In this document: positions 15,272 through 59,240 of the stretch, in pieces | Layout: every line of letters starts with the position of its first letter | How positions within the stretch are numbered: position 1 is the first letter of the stretch | From: a virus | Virus record (IMG/VR): IMGVR_UViG_3300024999_000030 | Span: 124,001-188,000 of that record | Length of the DNA: 64,000 bases | Reading direction: 5' to 3' (one strand) | Notes under the pieces: model-generated | Told to the model about the DNA's origin: nothing | What the model saw: the letters and a program-made list of their open reading frames with translations, nothing else | The model's database searches: none | Translations under genes and position numbers: made by a program

Positions 15272-15727
15272 ATGGAAGGTTTAATTTTAAACATGTTAAG
15301 GGTTTCTGAATTCTTACATACCAATGAGAGGTTGGTGCTTGCTGGGACCATAGACAATGTTTTGGCCACCATTTTAAAATTTGCAGACATAGCTTTTGCC
15401 GAAAAAACCTTTTTTAAGAAATTAAAGGATATTATTTCCCACTATGGTCTTTCTTTCGATCAGGTTTTTTCCCAATTGGAAGCGTGGAAGACACAATTGG
15501 TACATATTGAATATGATTGGCGCATTGGTCTCCCTGAAGAAGAAATTGCTCGGGAAAAACCAGACTTTATGAAACGAGTTATTTTAGCAACAGATGAAAT
15601 TTATAATATTGCTAAGCCTTTTCATGGTGCAGTAGGAATGGAAAGTAAAAAATGGGGAGATATTATGCAATCCCCCGTTGAGACTTGGATGAAAAAATAT
15701 AAAGACTCTTTACAGAACAATGTCTAA
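15272..15727 (+). CDS. Hypothetical helical protein
   Basis: 151 residues with GGGAG upstream, mainly alpha-helical, rich in aromatic residues and Lys. Its end overlaps the next start by eight bases. No recognised domain. Confidence 0.65.
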   Translation: MEGLILNMLRVSEFLHTNERLVLAGTIDNVLATILKFADIAFAEKTFFKKLKDIISHYGLSFDQVFSQLEAWKTQLVHIEYDWRIGLPEEEIAREKPDFMKRVILATDEIYNIAKPFHGAVGMESKKWGDIMQSPVETWMKKYKDSLQNNV

Positions 15728-16169
15728 AAAATATTTAGTTGCTAAAAACAGATTTACTCCTGGAACTCCTGGGTTAACCATTCAGGGTTTTCCAGGCTGC
15801 GATGTCCTAGCTGATTTTAAAAACTCAACCGGCGACAGTGTTTTAAAGGTAATGTCTAATGGGGAATTAGTATGGAAGGGAACTTCACAAATTTCAACTG
15901 ATTATTTTAAACATTTAAATATTTTTACACAAACATGCCTAGATACAATTCAAATTTTCATTGACAACCCCAATAATATTAATCATTGTAGGGTCGCTGA
16001 TATGGGGACTAATGGTGGTCATTGTGGTATGGAATTTCGCACTATGTGTTCATTTTTTGAACGACTACACGGCAAAGAAATGAAAATTATTGGAGAATTA
16101 TCTCAAGATCTTTTAACTTGTATTGAATTTGTAGCAGCATTTCAAACCGCCCAAGAAACCCCCCAATAG
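15720..16169 (+). CDS. Hypothetical protein
   Basis: 149 residues. A beta-rich N-terminal half (VLKVMSNGELVWKG) is followed by a helical half containing several His and Cys. Part of the 14542-16421 run of overlapping or closely spaced genes. Function unknown. Confidence 0.65.
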   Translation: MSKKYLVAKNRFTPGTPGLTIQGFPGCDVLADFKNSTGDSVLKVMSNGELVWKGTSQISTDYFKHLNIFTQTCLDTIQIFIDNPNNINHCRVADMGTNGGHCGMEFRTMCSFFERLHGKEMKIIGELSQDLLTCIEFVAAFQTAQETPQ

Positions 16170-19574: not shown

Positions 19575-19964
19575 ATGAACAAAATTCAAATATACAGAGA
19601 AAAAGTGCTTATTGAATACTTACGTTCTTTACGTGAAATTGAGCAAGCTTTACTTGATAGCCCAAAAAAGATTTCTTTAGAACTTATAGATAAAATGAGT
19701 AATTTATTATATATGGACGCTACACCAGTTTGCGATGTGTGTTCCTATTCATGTCGGCAGGATGACACCTTACAACCTCACTGTTATATGGCAAGCTTAG
19801 CGACCACGAGCGTGAGGCATTTTTTGCATTTATATTCTATTACTTATGATCAGAAAACTGCTAGAAAACAAATATTGGAACAAATTCCCAAAGTGATTGT
19901 TGGGCTTATGGAAGTTCAAGCCCAAGTTATGGCACAATTTGGAGTTGAAAATGAGACTGTTTAA
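19575..19964 (+). CDS. Cys-cluster small protein, likely paralog family member
   Basis: 129 residues. Helical N-terminus, then C-D-V-C-x3-C and a further Cys about ten residues on, then a C-terminal helix ending L-M-E-V-Q-A. This arrangement (N-helix, C-x2-C core, single Cys, long terminal helix) recurs in the genes at 28.1, 30-31, 32.6, 43.9 and 50.9-53.9 kb. Probably one zinc site; role unknown. Confidence 0.65.
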   Translation: MNKIQIYREKVLIEYLRSLREIEQALLDSPKKISLELIDKMSNLLYMDATPVCDVCSYSCRQDDTLQPHCYMASLATTSVRHFLHLYSITYDQKTARKQILEQIPKVIVGLMEVQAQVMAQFGVENETV

Positions 19965-27951: not shown

Positions 27952-28134
27952 ATGGATTTTTTTAATTTTAAACCAACAACTATTAAAGAAGTTTGGAATA
28001 ATTGGAAATTTAAAGCAATCGGGCAAGCGATGCTTAATCCTATTCGTCGCCAAATAGACTATGAGGGCCTATCTCGTAGAATTTTCAAGGTGGAGCCCTT
28101 ACCCGCAAAAAAGGATGATCCAGATGGAACTTGA
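27952..28134 (+). CDS. Trp microprotein family-like
   Basis: 60 residues from the ATG at 27952 with GGAGGG upstream. T-T-I-K-E-V-W-N-N-W-K-F-K matches motif B; the C-terminus is basic then acidic. A + strand outlier of the 33-44 kb family. Confidence 0.6.
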   Translation: MDFFNFKPTTIKEVWNNWKFKAIGQAMLNPIRRQIDYEGLSRRIFKVEPLPAKKDDPDGT

Positions 28135-28507
28135 TTTCATACGATATCTAATTGTCAATAAACGTGAATTATCAATCCCACAGCGGGACGGCTTGGCTAA
28201 GTTTTTGAAAAATTTAGATATGGCATTGGATTTATATTTAGAAAAACCGGATCAAGACTCTATTAAAGTGGTTCTCACTGCCCTAGCGGGTCCACGACGG
28301 AGTTTTGACGATATGAAGTATCCTAATTGTAATTTGACTATGTTATTTCGTTCATGTCGTGGTTGTCCATGTGTAACTGGACAACATCCCTATGAAGTGT
28401 GTAGTGCAATTATGGGTTGGTCTCAAATGCTACGTGGTGGCGACTGCTCTCCAGAACTTTTTCTTCACTTTATGCAACTCAAAGCCCAATTGGAAATAAT
28501 AAAATAA
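28124..28507 (+). CDS. Cys-cluster small protein, paralog family
   Basis: 127 residues from the ATG at 28124 (AAGGATGATCC upstream). N-terminal helices, then C-R-G-C-P-C, a further Cys, and a final helix (F-L-H-F-M-Q-L-K-A-Q-L-E). Same plan as the genes at 30-31 kb and 51-54 kb. Confidence 0.68.
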   Translation: MELDFIRYLIVNKRELSIPQRDGLAKFLKNLDMALDLYLEKPDQDSIKVVLTALAGPRRSFDDMKYPNCNLTMLFRSCRGCPCVTGQHPYEVCSAIMGWSQMLRGGDCSPELFLHFMQLKAQLEIIK

Positions 28508-29954: not shown

Positions 29955-30266
29955 ATGAATAAACGTAATATGTCACGTCTTATTAAACAGTTGGAATTAG
30001 TCGCTCTAGATAGTGGAGAAATAGCAAAAAAACTAATTAAATGGGAGAATGGAAATCCAGCATGTGTATTATGGGAGACGTATAGTGATGTTTTTATGGA
30101 ACAATCTCGTTTTTGTCGAAGGTGCCCCGCTAAGTTAGAAGCTGGTAGGTCAAAATGTCAACTGCAACGGTACATTGAAGGTGAAATTAATGAAGGTTCA
30201 TTTTTATTATTAGTTATAGAAATGATTGCATATTTGAAAGTGAGAAGTGATGACAAAATATCTTAA
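29955..30266 (+). CDS. Cys-cluster small protein, paralog family
   Basis: 103 residues. Core F-C-R-R-C-P-A, a Cys about 13 residues later, then E-G-S-F-L-L-L-V-I-E-M-I-A terminal helix. Overlaps the next gene. Confidence 0.68.
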   Translation: MNKRNMSRLIKQLELVALDSGEIAKKLIKWENGNPACVLWETYSDVFMEQSRFCRRCPAKLEAGRSKCQLQRYIEGEINEGSFLLLVIEMIAYLKVRSDDKIS

Positions 30267-30591
30267 AAAATTAATTGAACTTAAAAACTCTCATAATTTT
30301 AATGTAGAGTCTTTTAATGAGATTTATACTCAAGCCTCTGAAGAAGATAATAAAAAAATACCCTTTGCCATAGCCTTTATCGGATGTGATCAGATATGTA
30401 GTGCTTGCGTGTTTATGTCCCCAGACGAAATGAAACGCACTCCATGTATAATTGGTGAATTAGCTTTTTCTTTAAAAGAAATGAAAAATTGTGATGATAA
30501 TCAATATGAGGCCTTTAGGCTTTTAAAGCTAATACAATTTCAAGCCGCTTTGGAGATATATGAATCCAATCATTCGTTCGGGCGAATCTGA
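30250..30591 (+). CDS. Cys-cluster small protein, paralog family
   Basis: 113 residues from the ATG at 30250. Core C-D-Q-I-C-S-A-C-V, later T-P-C, and terminal helix L-L-K-L-I-Q-F-Q-A-A-L-E. Overlaps its neighbours by 17 and 32 bases. Confidence 0.66.
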   Translation: MTKYLKKLIELKNSHNFNVESFNEIYTQASEEDNKKIPFAIAFIGCDQICSACVFMSPDEMKRTPCIIGELAFSLKEMKNCDDNQYEAFRLLKLIQFQAALEIYESNHSFGRI

Positions 30592-31000
30592 AACAACTCA
30601 GGATAGAATAACTCGACTTAAGGATAAAGCGTTGGCAAAAGAAGCTGTGCTTGTTTCTTATAAAATAATTGAAGCATTTAAAATGGATCCAACTTTAGAA
30701 AATGCCATTCGGATTACATATGCATTATATCCAAATGATAGTTTAGGTCCTGAAAATAGATCAGGAATATTTATTAATGGATGTGCTCTTCTACGTGCTC
30801 ACGGTGGTGAAAATTGGAGTTGTAATAAGTGTTGTTGGCAACATGAAAAACTATGTGATTTGTTATCTTTAATTAATCCAAACATATCCCTCATAGAAAA
30901 AGAAGAAATGCTTGGTAGAGTTCTGATGGCGGCAATTGAAATGCAGGTAACGCTTAGGGTTCATCCAGCTTTTTGTTGGGTGTTTATGGGTATGCCTTGA
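30560..31000 (+). CDS. Cys-cluster small protein, paralog family
   Basis: 146 residues. Extended helical N-terminus, core W-S-C-N-K-C-C-W-x4-C, and a terminal helix. Third consecutive family member in this operon. Confidence 0.66.
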   Translation: MNPIIRSGESETTQDRITRLKDKALAKEAVLVSYKIIEAFKMDPTLENAIRITYALYPNDSLGPENRSGIFINGCALLRAHGGENWSCNKCCWQHEKLCDLLSLINPNISLIEKEEMLGRVLMAAIEMQVTLRVHPAFCWVFMGMP

Positions 31001-32051: not shown

Positions 32052-32624
32052 ATGATAGATCCAACTAATATTACAAAATACGATAGAACCGACGAGGAGT
32101 TAGAAGAGTTTATCGTTTTCTCTATTTTAGTGGCTGGGCACAATGCAAAGAACACTGCTATGGGCTTAGAACGCTTTCTAGGGGCCTTTAGGGACGCGAA
32201 ACCATTCCGAGTGATAGACGGACACGTAAAAGCAGGAACTCTTGTCCTGGCGCTCAAGAACGCGGGAATAGGCTGTCAAACAATAAGGGCTAAATCTCTT
32301 CAATCTCTTCTAGAAAGCCATTTAGACTTAAGAACCTGCACGGTAGATCAATTAGAACAAATTTCTGGTGTGGGCCCCAAGACATCTCGATTCTTCATTT
32401 TACACTCCAGGCTCAATGCGAGAGTAGCAGCTTTAGATGTTCATATCCTTAGATATCTTAAATCTTTGGGATATAATGTGCCCACCGTGACTCCAACTGG
32501 AAAGAATTATCGTAAGATTGAAGAAATATTTTTACAAGAAGCAGATAAAAGTGGAATGACCGTTGCGGATTTCGATTTATTTATTTGGAATATGAGTACG
32601 GCCAAGAAAATAAAAAATGTGTAA
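32052..32624 (+). CDS. HhH-GPD DNA glycosylase (Nth/OGG-like)
   Basis: 190 residues. Helix-hairpin-helix I-S-G-V-G-P-K-T-S with Lys110 at the position of the Schiff-base lysine, then Asp129 in A-L-D-V-H-I-L-R, the catalytic aspartate, 19 residues on as in endonuclease III. The iron-sulfur Cys cluster of Nth is missing, as in thermostable 8-oxoguanine glycosylases. It excises a damaged base and may nick the strand. Confidence 0.87.
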   Translation: MIDPTNITKYDRTDEELEEFIVFSILVAGHNAKNTAMGLERFLGAFRDAKPFRVIDGHVKAGTLVLALKNAGIGCQTIRAKSLQSLLESHLDLRTCTVDQLEQISGVGPKTSRFFILHSRLNARVAALDVHILRYLKSLGYNVPTVTPTGKNYRKIEEIFLQEADKSGMTVADFDLFIWNMSTAKKIKNV

Positions 32625-32829
32625 AATATTAAATGAAATAATAGAACATCCTGAAATATTAGACAATAACAATTATAGATCAAGGGAATTCTGTGTACAT
32701 TCCTGTGATGGTTGTTGTTTAGTTATAAATTGGGAATTAGGTATAGTCGACTTAACTGAGGCTCAATTTTTATTAAGATGTATTGAAAAAAGAGCTGAGT
32801 TAGAAATTAGTCCTTCGGTTTCTCAATAG
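32617..32829 (+). CDS. Short Cys-cluster protein, paralog family
   Basis: 70 residues. F-C-V-H-S-C-D-G-C-C-L core and terminal helix Q-F-L-L-R-C-I-E-K-R-A-E-L-E; the shortest family member. Overlaps the glycosylase gene by eight bases. Confidence 0.6.
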   Translation: MCKILNEIIEHPEILDNNNYRSREFCVHSCDGCCLVINWELGIVDLTEAQFLLRCIEKRAELEISPSVSQ

Positions 32830-43903: not shown

Positions 43904-44374
43904 CTATCTCTTCATCTCTAAAAGAGCGGCTAGTTCCAAGAAAGTAAGGATACTGGTTTCATTCATATTAGTATTCATCATAATATCACAATCTATAAGG
44001 ATATAAGTTCCCCGAGAAGCATCAGTATATAGATTAGTATTAGGAATGGCATCTTTTAGTATTCTAGTTTTACTCCATGGGCACTCAGAACAATTTAATA
44101 TATTATTATCCGTAAGTATACAAGTCGGATTCTTTATATCATTATGCCGAGTAATACTTCCACGTGCAGCTCTCCATTTATGATCTGGATTAACTATTTC
44201 TTCTGCTTGTTTAAAGTGTTTAATATACTGTCTATTGATGTTATTAAGAGAATTACACCACTCTTCCCCTTTGTTTTCTTCAGTTACACATGATTCAAAG
44301 TCGCGTATGTATGAATGTATACGGTAGAGGGTTGAGTCGATAATGTAAGATTTATGTGTTGACTGTTCGCTCAT
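43904..44374 (-). CDS. Cys-cluster protein, paralog family
   Basis: 156 residues, first gene of the minus-strand array. Core N-C-S-E-C-P-W, another Cys later, and terminal helix T-F-L-E-L-A-A-L-L-E. Longer N-terminus than its relatives. Confidence 0.65.
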   Translation of the reverse strand: MSEQSTHKSYIIDSTLYRIHSYIRDFESCVTEENKGEEWCNSLNNINRQYIKHFKQAEEIVNPDHKWRAARGSITRHNDIKNPTCILTDNNILNCSECPWSKTRILKDAIPNTNLYTDASRGTYILIDCDIMMNTNMNETSILTFLELAALLEMKR

Positions 44375-45481: not shown

Positions 45482-45482
45482 G

Positions 45483-46240: not shown

Positions 46241-46317
46241 TGTAACATAACAGCGCCAGTAATAAAGATACTAGCTAAACCATATGATACTGGATAAACC
46301 AACGGAGGGAAACCACA

Positions 46318-47179: not shown

Positions 47180-47194
47180 GGAGCGAGGTGAACG

Positions 47195-47719: not shown

Positions 47720-47736
47720 AAAGGAGGTGTCTTAAG

Positions 47737-47946
47737 TTGCCAGTCTTCATCGTTCAACAACTCGAAGGCGTCCACTGGTTTGATTCCGGTGATCATGGGG
47801 CCTGTCTGACGCGAATCCTTTCCAGCCAGAGAGAGGGGCTGGAGTTTGCGAGGGATGTTACCAGACGAACACAATTCGAAACCCGAGTAGTGGAGACAGA
47901 CAAAAACCGAATTGTTTACAACGTCTGGTCTCCGCACGCTCCATAA
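47737..47946 (+). CDS. Small hypothetical protein (TTG start)
   Basis: 69 residues from the TTG at 47737, selected because AAAGGAGGTG lies just upstream. Alpha/beta, no known motif. Confidence 0.55.
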   Translation: MPVFIVQQLEGVHWFDSGDHGACLTRILSSQREGLEFARDVTRRTQFETRVVETDKNRIVYNVWSPHAP

Positions 47947-47962
47947 CAATCCGTTCTTCACA

Positions 47963-47988
47963 GAGTACTCCTGTTAAAGGGAGTACTC
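47963..47988 (+). terminator. Hairpin, probable terminator
   Basis: Perfect stem GAGTACTCC / GGAGTACTC with a TGTTAAAG loop; no clear T tract, so termination is uncertain. Confidence 0.45.
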
Positions 47989-48081
47989 AATCCCGTCAAT
48001 GTATACTAGCTGGTGGGACGGGGTAAGAGCACAATATATAGTAGTGCTCAGGCTAGTATGCCACAACATATAGGAGAACAC

Positions 48082-48132
48082 ATGAACATCAGTCGGCGTA
48101 AGAGGGGTTACATAAATCAGAGAGGAGGATAA
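48082..48132 (+). CDS. Possible leader microprotein
   Basis: 16 residues, strongly basic, with AGGAGAACAC upstream; its last codons form the ribosome binding site for 48135. Confidence 0.35.
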   Translation: MNISRRKRGYINQRGG

Positions 48133-48134
48133 CA

Positions 48135-48344
48135 ATGAATAGGGCTGATGTCCTCTTGATACTGGACGAAAAGTTTGCCAAGAAGGTGACGGATGAATAC
48201 AAGAAACGCACTGGATACAGTAATGTAATCGGTAGCGTTTCTAGCAATATGAAAGTCTTTATCCCCATCATTAAAGATATTCTTGATGATGGGCTTCGTG
48301 TACAAGAAGAAAACGAAAGAGAGGTGCGACATGATAAAAGTTGA
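48135..48344 (+). CDS. Small hypothetical protein
   Basis: 69 residues with AGGAGGATAA upstream; charged, helical. Overlaps the next gene by 14 bases. Confidence 0.6.
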   Translation: MNRADVLLILDEKFAKKVTDEYKKRTGYSNVIGSVSSNMKVFIPIIKDILDDGLRVQEENEREVRHDKS

Positions 48345-48534
48345 ACCGATGGAACCGCTGGACACAGAAAACTACGCCGTGCCCTTGAATCCTTTTCATC
48401 AAGACATATACAGTATGGGGACGACGCTGGGGACAAACGTGACGGTGATGTACGGAAATCATACTCACACTCATCAACCTTACATCATCGTTGTTAACCT
48501 GGATACTGGCGAACGAATCAAGATCGCTTTCTGA
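48331..48534 (+). CDS. Small hypothetical protein
   Basis: 67 residues from the ATG at 48331 (GAGAGGTGCG upstream). Contains H-T-H-T-H and a beta-rich end. Confidence 0.58.
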   Translation: MIKVEPMEPLDTENYAVPLNPFHQDIYSMGTTLGTNVTVMYGNHTHTHQPYIIVVNLDTGERIKIAF

Positions 48535-48548
48535 AAGGGAGGTGTGTC

Positions 48549-48725
48549 ATGAACGAAAAGGAAAAGAACAGGATGCGACGATTATTGGAAATGGCTTATT
48601 TGTTTGCATGGGGTCCAGATGGTACGGCTGACCGCAGAGATGAATGGTGGGAACTTAAAGCTTTACTTCCCAACGTAGGAACGATGTGTTATGGTGGTAA
48701 TGGTAAATTCCGATGGGACGAATGA
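48549..48725 (+). CDS. Small helical protein
   Basis: 58 residues with GGGAGGTGTG upstream. Helix-rich, E-W-W-E-L in the middle. Function unknown. Confidence 0.55.
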   Translation: MNEKEKNRMRRLLEMAYLFAWGPDGTADRRDEWWELKALLPNVGTMCYGGNGKFRWDE

Positions 48726-48764
48726 GCCAAATAGGTTCAGTTCTTTTTCATAAGGAGGCGTGCC

Positions 48765-48950
48765 ATGGAACCGATCTTTGTTAACAATTGGGGCGAAATA
48801 CGAGGCGGTATCTCAGTGGATGAAGTCTTGAAGGGGGATGGTAAGCTAGCTGGCTTTACTGTCTCTGGCAAGAATCAAGATGGTAAGGAGTTCTGCATTG
48901 ACTTCTTCGTTCATGTTGGTGCCAAAAACATCACCATCACTTGCAGCTAA
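48765..48950 (+). CDS. Small hypothetical protein
   Basis: 61 residues with AAGGAGGCG upstream; beta-rich. Part of a run of tiny closely spaced genes, each with its own strong ribosome binding site. Confidence 0.58.
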   Translation: MEPIFVNNWGEIRGGISVDEVLKGDGKLAGFTVSGKNQDGKEFCIDFFVHVGAKNITITCS

Positions 48951-48965
48951 GGGAGGAGGAACTAC

Positions 48966-49103
48966 ATGGAATGGAAAGTCGTTGATACTGGCGATGAAAT
49001 CACCATCGTTCCTGAAACCCGCAATCTCCCCGGCAAAGTTCTTTTCGTCGGAACCTCAGTGGATTGCGATGAATATCTATATGAACTGAGCAACGACGAA
49101 TAA
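48966..49103 (+). CDS. Small acidic protein
   Basis: 45 residues with GGGAGGAGGA upstream; beta-rich, acidic C-terminus. Function unknown. Confidence 0.55.
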   Translation: MEWKVVDTGDEITIVPETRNLPGKVLFVGTSVDCDEYLYELSNDE

Positions 49104-49127
49104 CCTAACCCCATAAGGAGGCTCAAC

Positions 49128-49451
49128 ATGGAATGCGGATATCTAATTGCGTGGGTCGGTCCTTGTAAAAGCCAACCATCGGACGACAGTTCGTGCCGAT
49201 GTGACAAACACAAGGACAAAGTCTGTGCATCTTGTGGTGCTCCAGCCACTCAGGAATGCGATACGACGGGACAGTTCGTTTGTGGTGCTCCTCTCTGCAA
49301 CGATTGCGAGCACACCATCGCAGAAGACGGAACCAATGGTGGGGTTGGTTTCGTTCAACTCTCTCCCCTCCCACCGGGCTACAAGCCACACTGCAAGAAA
49401 ACGGAACAGAAATTCACCCCCTGGTTCATGAGGCCACTTTCGGAGAGCTAA
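49128..49451 (+). CDS. Zinc-finger protein (B-box/ZNF-like)
   Basis: 107 residues with AAGGAGGCTC upstream. C-x-C, C-A-S-C-G, C-D-T-T-G-x3-C-G and C-N-D-C spacing resembles a cross-brace zinc finger that reads C-x2-C...C-x7-C...C-x2-C. Likely protein-binding adaptor; target unknown. Confidence 0.62.
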   Translation: MECGYLIAWVGPCKSQPSDDSSCRCDKHKDKVCASCGAPATQECDTTGQFVCGAPLCNDCEHTIAEDGTNGGVGFVQLSPLPPGYKPHCKKTEQKFTPWFMRPLSES

Positions 49452-49462
49452 GGAGGCTCGAC

Positions 49463-49627
49463 ATGCCACTAAAACCTGGCGATCGTTTACCCCGTGCTAA
49501 GGTAGATATCATGGACCTTAGCGAAGTGATGGATGAGGATATGAGGGGTAAGTTGGACACCCTTCGCACCCTCACTCCTCCTAAGCCCAACCTGTTTCAA
49601 CTGGAAGGAGGACCGGCGGATGGATAG
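49463..49627 (+). CDS. Small acidic protein
   Basis: 54 residues from the ATG at 49463 (AAGGAGGCTCG upstream). Pro-rich C-terminus. Overlaps 49620. Confidence 0.55.
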   Translation: MPLKPGDRLPRAKVDIMDLSEVMDEDMRGKLDTLRTLTPPKPNLFQLEGGPADG

Positions 49628-49904
49628 AAAAGATCGAATCATCCAGCGCCAGAACAATGAAATACTGCTAATGGAGCTTCGTCTAGAGGAACTGGAAAGG
49701 ACCCTCGGTGAAGCGGTTAATCTCATCCAAGAAATCCACACAGAGATGATGACCGAGCTTCATACCTGTGCTCTGTTCGATGATAAGGTCTGGGTCATCG
49801 ATCAAGAATTGGCAATGGCCCACGCTGCCTTTGAGGAGGATATGGCAAAGGGCCTTGAGACACTTCAAGACGATGAAAGGTCAGATGGCGTACTGGATTC
49901 ATGA
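49620..49904 (+). CDS. Small coiled-coil protein
   Basis: 94 residues with GAAGGAGGACC upstream; acidic leucine-repeat helix for most of its length. Confidence 0.6.
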   Translation: MDRKDRIIQRQNNEILLMELRLEELERTLGEAVNLIQEIHTEMMTELHTCALFDDKVWVIDQELAMAHAAFEEDMAKGLETLQDDERSDGVLDS

Positions 49905-50004
49905 AGCAGAGCAGGGAGAGGCATCTGGATATCTTGGTCCCGATAAGAGTGAAGAGTTTCTCAGTAGGATCCTTAACAAGCTGGATGTGCCTCCAGAGGA
50001 TTAA
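49885..50004 (+). CDS. Small hypothetical protein
   Basis: 39 residues from the ATG at 49885, overlapping the previous gene by 20 bases (AAAGG upstream). Helical, acidic. Last gene before the large RNA region. Confidence 0.5.
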   Translation: MAYWIHEAEQGEASGYLGPDKSEEFLSRILNKLDVPPED

Positions 50005-50006
50005 AC

Positions 50007-50034
50007 CAGTATCTCTATAGTCTTAAAGATACTG
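50007..50034 (+). other. CCAGTATCT/AGATACTGG hairpin
   Basis: The octamer pair forms a 9-bp stem with a 10-base loop directly after the 50004 stop. Same hairpin type at 54014-54054. Confidence 0.5.
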
Positions 50035-50049
50035 GCGAAGTAATAGATA

Positions 50050-50930
50050 CTGAGCATGGATGACACGTGACTCAGTTCTATAGGTAAGCCTAGCATATAG
50101 CATGTAGCGTCTCCTATAAGAGGCACGTGACTATATGTTGTCGGATGGTGGCTAGGCATGTCGGGTAGCAGGCGGGTGGCTAATCCGATACTTCAGTTTC
50201 AATCATCGCACGTCACCTACTAAATAAGTGGTACGGCGGTAGTTGATTAGAGCCCATTTTAATCGCGTGACGATGATTCAGGGTAGGTCCAGTGACTCCT
50301 GCAATACACTTACCTCTGACGGGCTGATAACCCCTCATGCGAGTAATGTGACGGGAGACCATAGCACATGAATGCCCTTATCCCTATAGGGGACGGAACG
50401 TATGTGACTATGAGAATCGTCCAGAGTAAGAGCCTGGATGATAGGAGAGACGCGTAAGCGACTCTAAAGACTGGACGAATTAGACGGCAGGTGGGTGGCC
50501 AGTCTAATGGGTTTGCAAAACTATTCTACTGCATGGAGGGACGGCAAAAGCCCTTCCCAGTTTCCGTTAAGCGGTGCTGACCGTGACGGTGGAATAGTTT
50601 AAAGGGTAGGCTTAGAAATATACCACATGGAGAAGACACCCCAATCGAGTGGAGTCAGTCATATAGATGGCCTGTGATGGTATAGGGGCTTATGGAGAGT
50701 AAGCCAGGCTAAGCGGTTAGGGTGAGCAGGTGAGTGGCTTCCTAACACTTAAGTTAAACTGGTGTCTATCATATAGGTAGCGTCCGGTAGAGTCCGGTGT
50801 GTATGATGGGCCAGGAAAGGTAAGCGAGGAGATGGCATCGTAGATGTGGGAGTTTTCTTCCTATGGTGCAGATTAGGCGGTCCTCGCGTGGCGTCAGCAG
50901 GTGGGTGGCAGGCGCTCTCGGAATAATATG
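50050..50930 (+). ncRNA. Large structured RNA with four repeated modules
   Basis: About 880 bases without a credible gene. GCAGGYGRGTGGC recurs at 50168, 50487, 50726 and 50897. Each copy sits in the loop of a hairpin whose stem differs but still pairs: TCGG/CCGA, TTAGAC/GTCTAA, GTTAGG/CCTAAC and GCGTC/GGCGC. Upstream in each module, a GTAAG element lies in or next to a second stem in three of four: CCTAGC/GCTAGG (50089/50151), GTCCAG/CTGGAC (50419/50471), GCGAGG/CCTCGC (50824/50882). Compensatory changes imply a functional RNA. Its size and phage context recall ornate RNAs such as GOLLD or ROOL, but identity is unproven. Confidence 0.75.
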
Positions 50931-50943
50931 AAAGGAGGCGGCT

Positions 50944-51294
50944 ATGACTTCAAGAGAAAATCTTCAAAGAATTAATGAAGCAATCAAAGCCGCTAAACAT
51001 TTAATTAAACACCCCCATAGTAAATCGGCATGGGGGAGTTTAGATTATAACACTCTGCCAATAGGCAATTATTCATCAAAAGGATTTACTTGTCCAATAA
51101 GTTGTGATAATTGTCCACTGGCATTGGGAATAACTCCGTTGAATCTTCCTGAGTTTATTTGTGAGGGTAATGCCCATGACATTATAATGGAAAAACAAAT
51201 CATGGGAGAGGTTATATTACTTCTCATTCAATTTGTGGCCACTATGGAAGTAGTCCAGGAGGATATTAAAAGGGGCCAAGGAGGTACAACATGA
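50944..51294 (+). CDS. Cys-cluster small protein, paralog family
   Basis: 116 residues with AAAGGAGGCGG upstream. K-A-A-K-H-L-I-K-H-P-H-S-K N-helix, core C-P-I-S-C-D-N-C-P-L, single Cys, then G-E-V-I-L-L-L-I-Q-F-V-A terminal helix. AT-rich codons unlike the surrounding arm. Close paralog of 51959. Confidence 0.7.
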   Translation: MTSRENLQRINEAIKAAKHLIKHPHSKSAWGSLDYNTLPIGNYSSKGFTCPISCDNCPLALGITPLNLPEFICEGNAHDIIMEKQIMGEVILLLIQFVATMEVVQEDIKRGQGGTT

Positions 51295-51593
51295 GAAAAT
51301 TAAATAATAAAGAAAGACGAGCACAGATAGAAGCAGTAAAACAATTATTAGATGACGTTAAAGATATTTATCTTTGGAGATAATTACATTCTGTTACTGG
51401 ATTCTTTAATTCAATAGATTTCTGTCCGGACCTTCCTGGTCAAATTTTAAGGTGTCTGCATTGTCCCTTAAGATTGAACTCAGCAACTCATTTATGTCGA
51501 TATAGACATCAGAATTATAAGGAAGTCATAATATCGGATGGTGAAATAACCATTAGGCTTCTGGAGTTTCTAGCCTATATACAAATAACCTAA
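51291..51593 (+). pseudogene. Cys-cluster family member with in-frame TAA
   Basis: An otherwise intact 100-codon frame with ATGA coupling, C-L-H-C-P-L core and G-E-I-T-I-R-L-L-E-F-L-A-Y-I-Q end is interrupted by one TAA at codon 31 (51381-51383), where relatives have a charged residue before L-x-x-V/I-T-G. A point nonsense mutation (AAA or GAA to TAA) explains it. Confidence 0.7.
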
Positions 51594-51609
51594 CGAAAGG
51601 AGGCTTCAG

Positions 51610-52023
51610 GTGAGAAAATGTAATGGATGTAAGCAGACCAAAGATGAATATTACATGCTTAAACCTGAAGTCTGGATACAGGCATGTATGAAGCCCGTTA
51701 AAAACATCCCAGTAATATCTGTCCTACGCATGCTTTGTGTATCATGTGTAGAAAAGAGACTGGGAAGGGAACTTAACTGGCGGGACTTTGCTCTTTGCCG
51801 ACTTAACTTGGACCCATCTGAACCGAGAACGGCTATACTTCAAGATCGAATGAGTGGTATAACCAATCGCCTTCCACAGTGGTTCTTCAATAGATACGGT
51901 GAAGATCAATGGGATGTGTCGGCCTTAGCTTATGGATGGCCACTGAGAGGAGGATGCAATGAAAAACACACCGATAGAAAAAGCAAAGCGGGCGGCGGAG
52001 TATCTAATCAAGCATCCTCATAG
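51610..52023 (+). CDS. Zinc-binding hypothetical protein
   Basis: 137 residues with AAAGGAGGCTTC upstream. N-terminal C-N-G-C, then C-V-S-C about 37 residues on; the C-terminus is basic and overlaps the next gene by 65 bases in another frame. Not the same family as its neighbours. Confidence 0.6.
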   Translation: MRKCNGCKQTKDEYYMLKPEVWIQACMKPVKNIPVISVLRMLCVSCVEKRLGRELNWRDFALCRLNLDPSEPRTAILQDRMSGITNRLPQWFFNRYGEDQWDVSALAYGWPLRGGCNEKHTDRKSKAGGGVSNQASS

Positions 52024-52267
52024 TAGAATCGCTTGGGCTATGTTAAGCGATAATACTTCTCCTTCGTGGGGCAATAAACTAATTCGGTGTCCATTTGATT
52101 GTTATAACTGCCCATTAAGAACTGGCGCAAATGAATTAGGTCTTCAGACATATATATGTGGTAAGTCTGATTTTGAATCCAAGAGTGGTAATTTATTCGG
52201 AGAGGTTATATTGTACCTCATCCAATTTGTTGCTTTTGTGGAAGCGTTTCAAGGGGCAAAGCCATGA
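51959..52267 (+). CDS. Cys-cluster small protein, paralog family
   Basis: 102 residues with GAGAGGAGG upstream. A-E-Y-L-I-K-H-P-H-S-R, core C-P-F-D-C-Y-N-C-P-L, Y-I-C-G, G-E-V-I-L-Y-L-I-Q-F-V-A. Nearest paralog is 50944. Confidence 0.7.
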   Translation: MKNTPIEKAKRAAEYLIKHPHSRIAWAMLSDNTSPSWGNKLIRCPFDCYNCPLRTGANELGLQTYICGKSDFESKSGNLFGEVILYLIQFVAFVEAFQGAKP

Positions 52268-52343
52268 TAATCACATTTAAAAGTGTCATCAACATGCCTG
52301 ATTAGATTCATTGCCTTTGCTCAGGTGGAAGTGGAGGATTCCC

Positions 52344-52664
52344 ATGAAAGTCCCAGATAAAGAGGATAGGCAATTACAACTCACGACGATTTACGACCTG
52401 ATAAATAACTTGGATGATCCCAAGTATTGGAGAAGACTTTGGAACGTTACTGGGGGGCACTATGAGGAGCCAAAAGCAGAATGGAAAGATTTTTGTCCAT
52501 CTATTGATGGTTCGCTCCGGTGCTATAATTGCCCCCTTCGAGTGTTGGGTGAACATTATCAAGTCAACTATCTCTGTCGCCATAGTGGTTCTAACAAACC
52601 TGATCCAGCTAATGGAGAAGTCCTTCGTAGGTTATTGGAGTTTCTAGCCTACTCACAATTATAA
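52344..52664 (+). CDS. Cys-cluster small protein, paralog family
   Basis: 106 residues from the ATG at 52344 (GGAGGATTCC upstream). D-D-P-K-Y-W-R-R-L-W-N-V-T-G, core F-C-P-S..C-Y-N-C-P-L, Y-L-C-R, G-E-V-L-R-R-L-L-E-F-L-A-Y. Confidence 0.7.
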   Translation: MKVPDKEDRQLQLTTIYDLINNLDDPKYWRRLWNVTGGHYEEPKAEWKDFCPSIDGSLRCYNCPLRVLGEHYQVNYLCRHSGSNKPDPANGEVLRRLLEFLAYSQL

Positions 52665-52680
52665 GGAGGGTCCAAATGAA

Positions 52681-53064
52681 ATGAGAGGATATGAAATAAG
52701 GACCCAGGAACAAATGGAACATCAAATAAAAGTAGCCCAAGCATTACTTAACGACTTAAGTAATGTGAATCTATGGAAGGAACTGTCTCGTATAACTGGA
52801 CTACAACCAGTCGTAGTAAGTAAAACTAGATTAACTAAGACTGATTACTGTCCAGGTTTATCCGTCTCAACTCCCTCACGGTGTAAAATCTGTCCTCTTT
52901 GTCTCCCTAGAGCCCAAGTACCTGGACAAACTTCAAAATGGGATTACTATCTCTGCCGAAGGTATATGTCTCATGAAAAATTGTGTCCAGAGATAGAAGA
53001 TGGGGAAGCGACTCGTAGGCTATTGGAATTCATAGCCTTCATACAAATACAACCCGACTCATAG
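52681..53064 (+). CDS. Cys-cluster small protein, paralog family
   Basis: 127 residues with AAGGAGGGTCC upstream. L-W-K-E-L-S-R-I-T-G, core Y-C-P-G..C-K-I-C-P-L-C, Y-L-C-R-R, G-E-A-T-R-R-L-L-E-F-I-A. Confidence 0.7.
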   Translation: MRGYEIRTQEQMEHQIKVAQALLNDLSNVNLWKELSRITGLQPVVVSKTRLTKTDYCPGLSVSTPSRCKICPLCLPRAQVPGQTSKWDYYLCRRYMSHEKLCPEIEDGEATRRLLEFIAFIQIQPDS

Positions 53065-53073
53065 GAGGTGACG

Positions 53074-53169
53074 ATGAAAATCTCTCGCGTTCCATCACAG
53101 TTCGCCCCTGGTCGCTACAACGATGAATTCGTTTATAGGGAGGTGATCATGAAGCATGGTGTTACATGA
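53074..53169 (+). CDS. Tiny ORF between family members
   Basis: 31 residues with AGGAGGTGACG upstream, ATGA overlap with the next gene. GC-rich codons; unrelated to its neighbours. Confidence 0.45.
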   Translation: MKISRVPSQFAPGRYNDEFVYREVIMKHGVT

Positions 53170-53528
53170 CCAACTCAAATAGTACAACCCCCATCAAAAT
53201 CATCAAAGAAATCCCTGAAGAACAAATCAAAGCAGCCCAGTATCTAATCAATCACATTGATGATCCTGAAGGCTGGAAACGCTTGCAGGAAGTAACTGGT
53301 GATACTGGGATCTTTGAATCCACAATCGATCACTGTGGCGACAATGCATACTCTGGAAGGCTGCCACAGATCACATGTTCAGCGTGTCCCCTCAGGGTAG
53401 AAAGTAGCACATATCTCTGCCGATATAGTCACCCAAATTATCCTCATGTCAATATGGAGGACAGTGCGATAATTCTGAAACTGATAGAGTTTATCGCATA
53501 TGTTCAAACAGTTTTTCCTAAGGCATGA
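53166..53528 (+). CDS. Cys-cluster small protein, paralog family
   Basis: 120 residues. D-D-P-E-G-W-K-R-L-Q-E-V-T-G, core H-C-G...C-S-A-C-P-L, Y-L-C-R-Y, then I-L-K-L-I-E-F-I-A-Y-V-Q. Confidence 0.7.
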   Translation: MTNSNSTTPIKIIKEIPEEQIKAAQYLINHIDDPEGWKRLQEVTGDTGIFESTIDHCGDNAYSGRLPQITCSACPLRVESSTYLCRYSHPNYPHVNMEDSAIILKLIEFIAYVQTVFPKA

Positions 53529-53633
53529 GATATACTTGGAAGGAATGCAGAGAGTTAATTAGCTGCTGCACTTAAAGTAGTAGCTAAGCCACGATCCAAG
53601 AAAGCCTGGAAGGAACTGGGTAAAGTTACTGGT

Positions 53634-53984
53634 GTGAATTATCGCACACCCGACAATAGTCTAGTCGGGAAAGAAGTCGATTTTTGTAAGAAGGCTTGTT
53701 CCAAATGTCCCTTGTATGTAAAGAGAGCGGTATACATTTGCCGCAAGGACATTTGGCCAGAAATGTTGATAGACGTTAGTGAGGGCGAAATCCTTCGTCA
53801 CTTGCTAGAGTTTATCGCTCACATCCAAATACAGGAGGAGCAGGACATGGCAAACGCATCTCAACTCCGTCGGGCCAAAGCGAACAAACTCACCGCCACC
53901 CAGGAACGCAAGCAGTCTCTCAAGGCTAATCGTGTCTTCGGACAGACGAGGACGACGATGCCAAGGAAGTCCAAGAGCCGTTAG
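53634..53984 (+). pseudogene. Cys-cluster family member, broken N-terminus, fused to a basic tail
   Basis: From GTG 53634 the core F-C-K-K-A-C-S-K-C-P-L, Y-I-C-R and G-E-I-L-R-H-L-L-E-F-I-A is intact. Family-like sequence (K-A-W-K-E-L-G-K-V-T-G) continues upstream to about 53567 but has no start and seems frameshifted. Downstream the frame runs on into a Lys/Arg/Thr-rich 45-residue tail that has its own AGGAGGAG and ATG (53847), so the tail may also be made alone. Confidence 0.55.
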
Positions 53985-54013
53985 TCTCCGTTAGTATTCA
54001 GAGCCAGTGGGCC

Positions 54014-54054
54014 AGTATCTTATAATGTAACAATCTCAACAATGAGATACTGGC
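54014..54054 (+). other. CCAGTATCT/AGATACTGG hairpin
   Basis: Octamer pair forming a 9-bp stem around a 22-base AT-rich loop, between 53984 and the PRTase-like gene. Confidence 0.45.
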
Positions 54055-54108
54055 TCATTGTAATGTGGATACTAACTCTGGGGCGAAAGTTTAAATGGGA
54101 GGTGGACA

Positions 54109-54768
54109 ATGGAAAAACTGATATTGCCCCTGATGAAGCCCGACCCGAAACAAATAGCAAAGGAAATGAACATAATGAACATGAAGACGGTCGGAAGCAA
54201 TTATCTTGAGAATCTCTTTCGGCCCCCAGGATATGCAAAGCTTATCATCACTGCCACCATTCAATTCATGAATACTCAATTTCCCAAGGATACTGGGCTG
54301 ATTGTTACTGGACTTAGCGGAAGTTTACTGGGATATGCCATCATGCTCTTGGGTGGTATTCCAGTAGCCTTTGTCCGTAAGGATGATGAACATTCTCATG
54401 GTGAAAGGATTGAAGGTATCCTCGCAAAGAAAGTCGTGTTCTTTGACGACTTCATTGCTAGGGGGACGACCTTTTTAAATATTCAAACGGCCATCCAGAA
54501 ACACAATCACATATTATCCAGCAAGGTTAAATTTGCTGGCTCTTTCTTCTGGTCATATTTCGATGTTATGTGTAAGGAAGAAGTTGCCAAGAACGGTCCC
54601 GTGTTTCGACTTCAGGTTGCCCGTTCTCCTGGGTCAAGTTATATCCAACGCTGGAACGATCATGACTCTAGGTGGAAGCTTCTTGAAAAATACAAGCTAG
54701 GATCCTATGACGATCCTTCTTGGAAACAACCTCCCAAGGAAATCAACTTATCTGGCGATGCTGTGTAA
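54109..54768 (+). CDS. Phosphoribosyltransferase-fold protein
   Basis: 219 residues with GGGAGGTGGAC upstream. A type I PRTase PRPP-loop is visible in V-V-F-F-D-D-F-I-A-R-G-T-T-F (two Asp, G-T-T), preceded by a PPi-loop-like G-L-S-G-S and a flexible R-K-D-D-E-H-S-H-G segment. It could salvage a nucleobase or act as a PRPP sensor; the base is not predictable. Confidence 0.72.
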   Translation: MEKLILPLMKPDPKQIAKEMNIMNMKTVGSNYLENLFRPPGYAKLIITATIQFMNTQFPKDTGLIVTGLSGSLLGYAIMLLGGIPVAFVRKDDEHSHGERIEGILAKKVVFFDDFIARGTTFLNIQTAIQKHNHILSSKVKFAGSFFWSYFDVMCKEEVAKNGPVFRLQVARSPGSSYIQRWNDHDSRWKLLEKYKLGSYDDPSWKQPPKEINLSGDAV

Positions 54769-54793
54769 TTAAACTACAACCAAGGAGGTGGGA

Positions 54794-55036
54794 ATGAACA
54801 TAAGAAAACTGGAAGTCATCCGGCAGGTATATCGTCGGGCATTCCTGGATCAGTCTCATACCTTTAAATTGAAAGACCGGCTCCAACGCATCTCTCAATT
54901 GAACGGCAAGAATGCTGAAGGAACAACAGTCTTCTTCGTTCGGGCATTTAAGACTGGGTGTGGTGGGGGTGTTTACTACGAGATTATCAAGGAAACGGAG
55001 AACAAAGACATCCCCCATATAAACTGTCTTTCCTGA
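54794..55036 (+). CDS. Small hypothetical protein
   Basis: 80 residues with AAGGAGGTGGG upstream. Basic helix then beta strands with a Gly-rich turn. Function unknown. Confidence 0.58.
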   Translation: MNIRKLEVIRQVYRRAFLDQSHTFKLKDRLQRISQLNGKNAEGTTVFFVRAFKTGCGGGVYYEIIKETENKDIPHINCLS

Positions 55037-55048
55037 AGGGATAAGACG

Positions 55049-55258
55049 ATGGTACTGGCAGACTTCAAACCTGGCGACCGGGTTAAGGTCGTGTCGGAAG
55101 AGAACTGGGGCAACCGCAAGAACCTCGTGAATAAGACGGGGGTGGTTGTTAAGACCATGAACGTCCATAAGGATGGCGTGGTGATGGTTAACATGGACGA
55201 CAGAAGGTGGAGACAGCAGACCTTCTATCCGTCCCAACTCAGTATCGTCCAGGACTAG
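55049..55258 (+). CDS. KOW/SH3-like small protein
   Basis: 69 residues. P-G-D-R-V-K-V-V, a K-T-G-V-V-V-K turn and a final W-R-Q-Q-T-F-Y-P-S-Q-L look like one SH3/KOW barrel, related in pattern to the repeats of 61225-62556. Convergent with, and overlapping, the HNH gene by 20 bases. Confidence 0.6.
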   Translation: MVLADFKPGDRVKVVSEENWGNRKNLVNKTGVVVKTMNVHKDGVVMVNMDDRRWRQQTFYPSQLSIVQD

Positions 55259-55748
55259 GAAGAGTTAACAGGTCGTGGTCAAACTCCCAGTGATGGTTTG
55301 GGCATAAGATGTGAGTGTTTTTCGGCCCATTAATTTCCCCTAGAGTCATAGGCACTGGACACTTTGATATGGCTATGATGTGAGCGACTTCAACATGCTT
55401 ACTGTAGCCACACACCTGACATCCCTTGCTTAATCTCTCTCGATTCCAGCGCCTGGCTAATCCCCTAATGCCCGAATACCTATTAGCGGGTAAACCTTTG
55501 CTTGTCTTGTGGCCATTGAGGTGTTCTTCAAGAGTAGATGACTTCAATTTTGCGGCAAGTTTATCTATCTCTTTCCTACATGGCAGGCAAAATGTTCTCC
55601 TGCTGGTACATGGTCCTCCACATTTAGCACATTTATGCTCTGGCTTGCGTTTAGGGTGGCGTAGATTGTTGTAGGTTGCGGCACAAGATTTAGAACAGAA
55701 CTTGTCATTGTCATGGGACTTTAAACACTGGGGACATTGCTTCTGCAT
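55239..55748 (-). CDS. HNH endonuclease (homing type)
   Basis: 169 residues from the ATG at 55748 (AAAGGAGATTAAC upstream). Two N-terminal zinc fingers (C-P-Q-C, C-A-K-C-G), then C-Q-V-C-G...V-A-H...N-T-H-I-L-C-P-N-H-H-W, the HNH beta-beta-alpha nuclease with zinc support. It is the only minus-strand gene of this arm and lies against the tRNA cluster: a mobile free-standing homing endonuclease (inference). Confidence 0.85.
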   Translation of the reverse strand: MQKQCPQCLKSHDNDKFCSKSCAATYNNLRHPKRKPEHKCAKCGGPCTSRRTFCLPCRKEIDKLAAKLKSSTLEEHLNGHKTSKGLPANRYSGIRGLARRWNRERLSKGCQVCGYSKHVEVAHIIAISKCPVPMTLGEINGPKNTHILCPNHHWEFDHDLLTLPSPGRY

Positions 55749-55809
55749 GTTAATCTCCTTTGAACACACTATATACTGTTTTATTAATATAGCGTGTTCA
55801 AATCTTTTT

Positions 55810-55885
55810 GGGTCGTTAGCTTAGCATTGAAAGCCATCGGCTCATAACCGATAGATCACAGGTGAGAATCCTGTACGACCCACCA
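55810..55885 (+). tRNA. tRNA-Met (CAT)
   Basis: Acceptor GGGTCGT / ACGACCC, discriminator A and encoded CCA. Anticodon loop CTCATAA in a CGG/CCG-closed stem, T-loop region CACAGGTGAGAATCCTG. CAT could also be tRNA-Ile2 if lysidine-modified. Confidence 0.92.
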
Positions 55886-55886
55886 T

Positions 55887-55961
55887 GGGCCCGTAACTCA
55901 ATGGTAGAGTATCGCCCTTTTAAGGCGAGAGTTGAGGGTTCGAGTCCCTCCGGGCCCACCA
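55887..55961 (+). tRNA. tRNA-Lys (TTT)
   Basis: Acceptor GGGCCCG / CGGGCCC with encoded CCA, anticodon loop CTTTTAA, T loop GGTTCGAGTCCC. One base after the previous CCA, so co-transcribed. Confidence 0.93.
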
Positions 55962-55999
55962 CTTATCTTATACAGGCGAACGCCAGGAAGGAGGTAACC

Positions 56000-56380
56000 G
56001 TGCCGTGCGATTGCGGTAATTGCCATTTCGGATTCAACTGTTCCAAAGAGTGGCAGACTCTCCACCCCGGAACGACCTGGTACGCCTGCGAGTTCTGCGG
56101 ACTCTATCAGGCTTCAGCTCCCATGTGTAACAAGTGCGAGCTGCAGGAGGAAGAGACCAAGTCCGGTATGAAGAGGTACGAGTTCCAGCGGCGCTCCCCA
56201 TTCTCTGGTAAGATTCACACCATGACCATCCAGATGACGGAGCAGCAGTTCGCGGAACTCTCCCAGCCCAACGGTCGTCACATCCAGGACATCCTCCCCC
56301 ATTGCACCCCCGATGAGAGGGAGTTCATCATGACCGGTATCACTCCCGAGGAATGGGAGCAGACCTTCGGGAAGAAGTAG
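56000..56380 (+). CDS. Zinc-finger hypothetical protein
   Basis: 126 residues from the GTG at 56000 (AAGGAGGTAACC upstream), between two tRNAs. C-D-C-G-N-C, C-E-F-C-G and C-N-K-C make up a zinc-rich N-terminus; the C-terminal C-T-P-D-E-R-E-F-I-M-T-G-I-T-P-E-E-W resembles a tail common in small phage proteins. Confidence 0.62.
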   Translation: MPCDCGNCHFGFNCSKEWQTLHPGTTWYACEFCGLYQASAPMCNKCELQEEETKSGMKRYEFQRRSPFSGKIHTMTIQMTEQQFAELSQPNGRHIQDILPHCTPDEREFIMTGITPEEWEQTFGKK

Positions 56381-56387
56381 TTACTTT

Positions 56388-56473
56388 GCGGCTGTGGTGG
56401 AATGGCATACACTACAGACTTAAAATCTGTCGGTCGTAAGACCTTGCGGGTTCGAATCCCGCCAGCCGCACCA
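56388..56473 (+). tRNA. tRNA-Leu (TAA)
   Basis: Acceptor GCGGCTG / CAGCCGC with encoded CCA, anticodon loop CTTAAAA, long variable arm (GTCGGTCGTAAGACCTT) typical of class II tRNA-Leu, T loop GGTTCGAATCC. Confidence 0.93.
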
Positions 56474-56702
56474 GCCCTTCCCAGTATCTCTTTCGTCCGA
56501 ACCGATAGGATACTGTCTCTGGCATTTCCCAAGGTGGAGATGCTGTATAATCGTAAGACCCACGGTAATGTATAGAGAGGATAAGCCTACTCTATCTATT
56601 GTGGGGACGGAGTAGTACCGCATTCCAGTATTAAAATGAGTCCAGGATACTGGTCTTGCGGAAACTTAAACTGGACCAAAGATCATAGGGGTTTTACAAC
56701 AA

Positions 56703-57104
56703 ATGAATATTCTCAACCAGAAAGGCCTCGGCGTGAAGTTCGTGGTTAAATGCACCAGGAAGGCAGTCTTCATCGAGGGTTCGCCCGAGAAGTCTTCCAA
56801 GGGGCATTACAACCTCACCGTCAGCGCCGGCGCCAAGAAGTTCTCCACGACCTGCATTGGTTCGGGAGAGCTGTTCGCTAAGGCATGGGCGATGTTGGCT
56901 GCCCACTTCCCCGCCGCCTATAAGAAGGCGACGGCCATCTCCAAGCAGCAGCGCGATGAAAACCGCGCCAAGGCAAAGACCACCCGGAAGGCGAAGAAGT
57001 CCGCTGCCTCCGGCGCCGATGTCAAGACGCTGCTTCAGGCTCTTGCTCGTCAGGGTAAGGGCAAGGGTAAGGGCAACGGTAAGCTTGTTGCCCTCTTCCT
57101 GTAG
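56703..57104 (+). CDS. Basic protein with Lys/Ala tail (paralog of 45089)
   Basis: 133 residues. Aligns end to end with 45089-45481: K-G-L-G-V-K, G-S-P-E, S-K-G, G-S-G-E-L-F-A-K, H-F-P, then a Lys/Ala/Arg-rich tail and L-V-A-L-F-L end. The tail is Gly-Lys-richer here (K-G-K-G-K-G-N-G-K). GC-rich codons. Likely the same function; the two copies bracket the octamer-rich module. Confidence 0.72.
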   Translation: MNILNQKGLGVKFVVKCTRKAVFIEGSPEKSSKGHYNLTVSAGAKKFSTTCIGSGELFAKAWAMLAAHFPAAYKKATAISKQQRDENRAKAKTTRKAKKSAASGADVKTLLQALARQGKGKGKGNGKLVALFL

Positions 57105-57148
57105 TCGGAACTTTTAATCCGGCTACCCACAATCTGAATTAACCCCCG

Positions 57149-57172
57149 GAGGGTCCCTGACGGGACCCTTCA
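57149..57172 (+). terminator. Hairpin, probable terminator
   Basis: Stem GGGTCCC / GGGACCC with a TGAC loop, then TTCAAT; T tract weak. Confidence 0.55.
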
Positions 57173-57178
57173 ATCCTG

Positions 57179-57334
57179 CCGGTGTCCCGTCGCTCGTGGG
57201 GCAGGGTAAGCAGACTTTATAGTTTGCAGGCGATGGGAAAGAAGTTCGGTTAGTGTCATTAGACACTAAGAAAGGTAGGTGCCGATGAAGCAGAGTTTTA
57301 AGGCTTAGTCTATTGGTAGACTATAGCCGGCACC
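57179..57334 (+). ncRNA. Possible structured RNA
   Basis: Gene-free. Perfect stems TTAGTGTC / GACACTAA (57250-57270) and TAGTCTA / TAGACTA around TTGG lie near and inside a GGTGCCG / CGGCACC closing pair. GGTAA-GCAGAC/GTTTGC upstream copies the GGTAA-stem element of the 50 kb RNA. Not a canonical tRNA despite ending in CACCA. Confidence 0.4.
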
Positions 57335-57384
57335 ACAGGCGATACTCAACGACTTAGAGTTTTATCTCCACACAGGAGGTTACG

Positions 57385-59233: not shown

Positions 59234-59240
59234 CTCCATC

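Follow-up and report, generated by a model that had tools for sequence, protein, structure and literature searches.

A tandem cluster of four-cysteine genes

We analyzed a family of small four-cysteine proteins encoded in the virus record IMGVR_UViG_3300024999_000030 (332,730 bases), with a focus on a tandem cluster of its genes at positions 50944-53984 of a 64,000-nucleotide stretch (hereafter, the window), which spans bases 124001-188000 of the record. Base positions below are those of the window, and positions in kb are those of the record unless the window is named. The record was read piecewise, and all six-frame open reading frames (ORFs) of at least 40 aa were searched for members of the family. 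The genome is that of a jumbo tailed phage, marked by genes for GroEL, topoisomerase II, ThyX, portal, tail proteins, DnaB, and DNA polymerase. The portal protein shares 36-38% identity with its counterpart in Bacillus phage G and 52-84% with fragments of other relatives. Judged by this protein, it is a phage-G-like giant phage and a distant relative of phage G.

The cluster comprises seven genes on the plus strand, R1 to R7, in two interleaved subgroups, a (R1 and R3) and b (R2 and R4-R7). All four cysteines are present in each of them, and blastp joins the seven in a single cluster at E<=1e-4. R1 (50944..51294, 116 aa) has a strong Shine-Dalgarno (SD) sequence, carries the IKHPHS motif of subgroup a, and is 47% identical to R3 (51959..52267, 102 aa) over residues 6-98 of the latter. 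R2 (51291..51593), whose ATG overlaps the stop codon of R1, is a full-length copy with an in-frame TAA at 51381-51383, past which the gene is undamaged. Between R2 and R3 lies an ORF (51610-52023) that is not a member of the family and lacks a Pfam match. R4 (52344..52664, 106 aa), R5 (52681..53064, 127 aa), and R6 (53166..53528, 120 aa) follow, and the last copy, R7 (about 53559..53837), is damaged at its N-terminus: a TAA lies just upstream, there is no start with an SD sequence, and the ORF continues into the next gene, a separate basic ORF of 45 aa (53847-53984) with a strong SD sequence of its own. The interrupted copies R2 and R7 could suggest a genome that reads TAA as a sense codon. 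We rejected this possibility because intact copies, such as R4, and the end of R2 itself use TAA as a stop.

The first-pass annotation of this DNA, made from its letters and ORFs, had described six neighbours here as an expanded, duplicated, and undescribed family with further copies in both arms of the phage. All the ORFs that it named exist where it placed them, and the six are indeed relatives; their count rises to seven, as R2 had been overlooked because the in-frame TAA splits its ORF. It had also remarked on AT-rich codons within the GC-richer right arm. The mean G+C content at third codon positions is 0.34 for the R genes, against 0.33-0.85 in the other right-arm ORFs and 0.25-0.27 in family members elsewhere, which bears out the remark in part; R4, R6, and R7 (0.40-0.44) overlap their neighbours. 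Scans of the cluster for sigma-70 promoters and terminators gave nothing above shuffled sequences.

One family across 126 kb

Since E-values obtained after iteration are self-confirming, we ran as an independent test a single pass of a profile built from genes at 196-218 kb, none of them from the window (the outside-window profile). The decoys in the profile searches were reversed or shuffled sequences at six times the size of the database, and the best of them reached E 0.11 in this pass. R1 (1.2e-5), R3 (2.8e-3), R5 (1.5e-4), R6 (4.4e-7), R7 (3.4e-4), and the segment of R2 downstream of its TAA (0.014) all ranked above it, R6 being the strongest link between the R genes and the rest of the family. 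The same R2 segment matched a profile of the R genes, itself included, at 4e-27. R4 (0.2) fell below the best decoy and is tied to the family via R2, R5, and R6. Comparisons between profiles agree with these results: hhalign joined the R set to the 196-218 kb set with a probability of 96.9% (E 1.8e-10, 87 columns; 96.8% in another run). A single step with a profile of the R genes only retrieved the genes at 198.6, 218.3, 154.0 (30.0 kb of the window), 217.5, and 196.8 kb, at E 7e-5 to 7e-3. Chance is excluded by these alignment statistics as the origin of the kinship of the R cluster.

The left arm of the window holds further members, all on the plus strand. Those above the best decoy of the outside-window profile are 28061..28507 (148 aa, 0.021; 0.005 with a profile of the R genes plus the outside genes), 29955..30266 (103 aa, 2e-4; 1.4e-3 and 0.027 with the R-only profile), and two genes that each overlap the preceding member, 30247..30591 (114 aa, 3.1e-5) and 30560..31000 (146 aa, 5.5e-4). 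An ORF with an N-terminal extension that the first-pass annotation had not listed (15720..16169) is a probable member: it is marginal in the outside-window profile (0.074), scores 0.044 with the R plus outside profile, where the best decoy has 0.021, and reaches 5e-14 only after iteration. As a set, the left-arm genes align with the 196-218 kb set at 86% (E 5e-6), and with the R set at 69% (E 4e-5) over 18 columns, in the C-terminal helix only.

Three other ORFs of the original list are less secure. Those at 19575..19964 (plus strand; single-pass E 0.41 and 0.68) and 43904..44374 (2.4 and 0.48; the sole minus-strand candidate) fall below the best decoy of the outside-window profile and are possible members, which reach 1.8e-10 and 1e-9, respectively, once included, so that their membership comes via iteration. 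The third, 32617..32829 on the plus strand, encodes a 70-aa cysteine protein with a family-like C-terminal helix, and is unproven (0.16 after iteration). It overlaps the 3' end of a HhH-GPD glycosylase gene (Ogg-HhH, 2.6e-6). This glycosylase lacks a C-terminal cysteine loop, and the overlapping cysteine-rich ORF (the two spanning 32052-32829) is possibly a split or family-derived partner. Hence, the proposed link between left-arm and right-arm genes stands for the window's 28.1, 30.0, 30.3, and 30.6 kb genes and lacks independent support for those at 19.6, 32.6, and 43.9 kb. The profile search, which had been named as a test able to overturn the list, left its core in place.

Iteration to convergence over the record collected 43 ORF segments, and in none of its rounds did a decoy pass the cut-off for inclusion. 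Taken together, the comparisons show, by sequence kinship, one paralogous family of about 42-47 genes, broken copies included, spread over 126 kb of the record (139.7-266 kb), an expansion larger than had been claimed. The genes form arrays at 174.9-177.8 (the R cluster), 196.5-198.9, 208.7-210.5, 217.5-218.6, and 251.5-254.9 kb, as well as pairs, triplets, and singletons outside them. The members at 251-254 kb are longer (209-280 aa) and have an extra N-terminal part. In most arrays the junctions range from overlaps of 32 bases to gaps of 16, with strong SD sequences at many starts, as is typical of translationally coupled operons, which we predict them to be. The R array has two larger gaps, of 76 and 101 bases.

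To our search, the family appears to be previously undescribed, and this part of the first-pass annotation is supported. Pfam, PHROGs, NCBIfam, PADLOC, and the PDB yielded no homologue of the family, and no two members hit the same family of Pfam, NCBIfam, or PHROGs. Queried with R3, the family consensus, or the 196.8 kb gene, tblastn over 50,697 phages gave no match, nor did R6 as a query against plasmids, and a scan of genome contigs with the R-gene alignment found none. Scans of viral contigs with R3, the R-gene alignment, and the 217.8/218.1 kb pair found no sequence other than, in some cases, the identical contig of this same phage; such scans depend on short conserved peptides, of which the family has hardly any. 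No copy turned up in the relatives that the portal sequence led to (52-84% and 34-38% identical), the closest of them being portal-region fragments of 5-44 kb that do not cover the array region. When topoisomerase, DNA polymerase, GroEL, and ATPase were used as queries to find relatives, they mostly returned the same phage. A second contig carrying the family is 100% identical and apparently comes from the same population, i.e., it is not independent.

Duplication, loss, and maintenance of the copies

In the phylogenetic tree the R genes are grouped (93/98), with one long-branch gene, at 235.3 kb, inside the group. Some pairs of neighbours are supported, e.g., 217.8/218.1 kb, and most deep forks are unresolved. 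The tree and the arrays make growth by local tandem duplication a well-supported interpretation. The earlier proposal that copies were transposed from the left arm to the right arm finds no support, as no left-arm gene is sister to the R genes and the deep branches are those that lack resolution.

Broken copies number at least five or six. Besides those interrupted in the R cluster, frameshifted copies lie near 209.6, 218.3, 232.7, and 265.8 kb, of which all but the first coincide with homopolymer runs or lie close to them. Sequencing errors are a less likely cause of these breaks because ORFs of at least 250 aa stay open despite holding 74 of the 133 homopolymer runs of at least 7 bases in the genome, and because the second contig, although not an independent one, is identical. 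The dN/dS ratio (non-synonymous to synonymous substitution rates) is 0.51 for 217.8/218.1 kb, the least saturated pair, and 0.22 for R1/R3, where dS is saturated. Given the value of about 0.5 in the least saturated pair, most copies look maintained and would have retained a function. The predicted genes show a family in birth-and-death turnover.

Anatomy of the predicted proteins

The family alignment (44 rows) shows a core plan C-x(2-28)-C-x2-C-[P]-x(6-40)-C, and in its four cysteine columns cysteine is the only residue found (these are filled in 41-44 of the 44 rows). Besides the cysteines, the conserved positions are the proline of an N/D-P turn after helix 1 (84%), an F-I in this helix, one W/F/I position, a proline after the third cysteine (70%), and a last helix I/L-E/Q-x2-A, whose alanine is present in 77%. 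Most other columns are variable, the loops between the cysteines range widely in length, and identity between subgroups is mostly 15-30%. What the members have in common is limited to the four cysteines, the N-terminal helix that ends in N/D-P, and the C-terminal helix, and two segments are kept hydrophobic. The tighter core written in the first-pass annotation, C-x2-5-C-x2-C, is better replaced by the one given here.

The N-terminal segment with helix 1 is strongly amphipathic (hydrophobic moment z 7.8). The C-terminal helix gave no amphipathic signal in the same measure and is mostly hydrophobic. The protein would consist of an amphipathic helix 1, the N/D-P turn, a helix 2, the C...C-x2-C(P)...C core, and the hydrophobic C-terminal helix. 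It is probably a small helical domain pinned by a single Cys4 metal site, holding either zinc or a [4Fe-4S] cluster. The isoelectric points (pI) follow no common trend, with 21 acidic and 21 basic proteins among the 44 members, and this even split argues against one shared role in nucleic-acid binding.

Possible functions of the family

Our preferred explanation, to which we give a probability of about 0.45 as a whole, is a birth-and-death family of metal-stabilised helical proteins that would serve as a diversified panel for host interaction or regulation. The patterns that favour it are the dozens of fast-diverging copies, the copy loss, the coupled operons, and the lack of a shared charge. 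Under this explanation, targets would be recognized by the variable loops that separate the cysteines, carried on the Cys4 and helix core as a scaffold. That the copies are so many, so divergent, and in part lost would then follow from selection for new targets. We tentatively suggest that the copies are accessory proteins binding different targets in the host or in competing phages, for take-over or counter-defence. Some neighbours of the family are themselves of an accessory kind, i.e., phosphoribosyltransferase-like, ankyrin, and dual-specificity phosphatase genes.

Several points weigh against this explanation. The searched databases, phages, and contigs hold no homologue of known function that would anchor a mechanism, which is why the mechanism is argued from the pattern. 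It is only the conservation of cysteines that points to a metal site, and the aligning itself tends to put cysteines in register. The dN/dS ratios, which are below 1, offer no positive evidence for an arms race, the family is seen in one phage population only, and the accessory neighbours are also compatible with a regulatory role.

A regulatory role is indeed the next best explanation, if an unlikely one. The copies would be small DNA- or RNA-binding regulators, i.e., transcription factors each with its own site, as suggested for an unrelated expanded family of phage G (see below). A related phage shows the same style of expansion, small Cys4 domains are often nucleic-acid binders, and the pI exceeds 7.5 in 21 of the 44 members. 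However, half of the members are acidic, no helix-turn-helix, zinc-ribbon, or other DNA-binding family was convincingly matched, the cysteine plan, with its single C-x2-C knuckle, is unlike a ribbon, and the role in phage G is itself just a suggestion.

We consider it more doubtful still that the four cysteines hold a [4Fe-4S] cluster in redox- or oxygen-sensing regulators or electron carriers. The C-x2-C-P-[FLY] motif with outlying cysteines recalls those of WhiB, MutY/EndoIII, and Cas4/AddB, but no Fe-S family of Pfam, NCBIfam, or PHROGs was matched and the spacings are far more variable than in those families. One weak match in a relative, to a protein that looks by eye like a DinG/XPD-type helicase (domain E 0.4), is within chance. 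A place in the virion, or among injected structural components, is very improbable: the large number of copies might fit a decoration protein, yet the arrays lie away from the portal (326-329 kb) and the tail-type genes (43-46 and 60-63 kb), and some adjoin accessory genes. Least probable of all is a set of unrelated small proteins sharing a chance or convergent C-x2-C-P motif, a possibility fed by the low identity between subgroups and the three unlinked ORFs of the window and largely refuted, for the core members, by the decoy-controlled profiles and the alignment of independently built sets. We rank the interaction panel first, followed by the nucleic-acid-binding regulators and then the Fe-S sensors.

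Neighbouring genes and other features of the genome

Two of the accessory neighbours are paralogous phosphoribosyltransferase-like genes that each adjoin a family member, one after R7 (54109-54768) and one before the 230.2 kb gene (L014:3618-4142). Upstream of the first (54010-54070), and upstream of the 196.5 kb array (L012 about 8910-8980), hairpins are followed by a GTAATGTGG-like sequence, and a looser element of this type lies upstream of the 217.5 kb array (L013 about 10900-10966). These elements are possible promoters or regulatory elements.

Other small groups of paralogues were noticed. Three adjacent small ORFs on the minus strand (42972-43876) carry W-[ST/R]-[LI]-Y close to their C-terminal ends and are perhaps another small expanded family. 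A paralogous trio lies at 61216-62553, L012:4134-5864, and L012:17205-17801, the first and last of which have in common a C-terminal stretch ending in R-N-V-[AV]-W. At 44 kb of the window the G+C content rises from about 0.31-0.34 to 0.43-0.53, and the GC-rich segment (44000-64000) has stretches without clear genes (e.g., 50020-50940), three tRNAs (Met, Lys, and Leu), and paralogues at 45020 and 56703.

Some of the large genes are composite. A topoisomerase II/GyrB-type gene (10399-13440) contains an intein (PF14890, E 3e-14, residues 527-831). The portal gene (L019:3053-5875) contains, from about residue 388, an insert that is similar to stretches of Staphylococcus phage ribonucleotide reductase genes, lacks a Pfam match, and is a suspected intein. 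The gene at L017:2238-5792 encodes an 1185-aa fusion of a polyA-polymerase/CCA-type nucleotidyltransferase with the catalytic core of a type IB topoisomerase.

Comparison with known systems

Four cysteines with a C-x2-C-P in the middle are also found in the [4Fe-4S] motifs of WhiB, of the MutY/EndoIII iron-sulfur loop (FCL), and of Cas4/AddB. Unlike these, whose models in Pfam, PHROGs, and NCBIfam the present family leaves unmatched, our family has variable spacings.

The closest parallel in the literature, and the only report of a similar expansion in other phages that we found, concerns phage G. That report describes an expansion of about 35 zinc ribbons (e.g., YP_009015343.1), termed unprecedented in 2021 and suggested to be nucleic-acid-binding regulators or transcription factors, each with its own site (Iyer et al. 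2021, PMC7824862). A single search recovered 33 of these copies and a profile search 37; most of them sit together in an array at 353-371 kb of the phage G genome. As in the present family, the paralogues are small, have four cysteines, number in the dozens, and stand in tandem arrays, in a large jumbo phage of a related lineage. However, the phage G proteins have two knuckles, C-P-I-C (C-P-x-C)-x(~15-20)-C-x3-C, and a C-terminal YWKENDRYLAKIL helix, and lack the N-terminal FINNPTxxNW hairpin of the present family, which has a single C-x2-C knuckle and does not follow the ribbon plan. We tried and rejected the identity of the two families: hhalign gave probabilities of 2.3%, 0.4%, and 0.2%, the cysteine plans differ, and the zinc-ribbon profile found no copy in the present record. 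Conversely, no convincing copy of the present family was found in phage G. As far as these profiles tell, the resemblance is one of phenomenon, not of homology.

Two further phage-G-like viruses have expansions of their own. IMGVR_UViG_3300042923_001459 (portal locus L054) has an array of 21 zinc ribbons at 0.2-19.7 kb, of which we found no mention in the examined passages of PMC7824862. IMGVR_UViG_3300039191_000589 (portal locus L052) has at 6.7-36.2 kb a cluster of 33 proteins of about 100 aa. The latter is likewise a lineage-specific tandem expansion, with cysteine-poor proteins (0.8 cysteines on average) that have no profile match to the present family. Few and fragmentary as these genomes are, they suggest that G-like phages may each expand a small protein of their own.

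The family described here is larger than that of phage G and made of a different protein, in a genome where the zinc ribbon is absent, which suggests a recurring strategy and not the oddity of one genome; the expansions in the two relatives add to this suggestion. A stronger version, which we regard as speculative and rather unlikely, is that small Cys4 proteins of unrelated kinds have been amplified independently in different G-like jumbo phages and that the present family would be a new class of effector repertoire, in which variable loops on a scaffold pinned by metal are diversified, as in a receptor family, for binding many targets in the host or its defences. With more than forty natural versions of a single small scaffold, the family is a ready set for asking what the copies bind.

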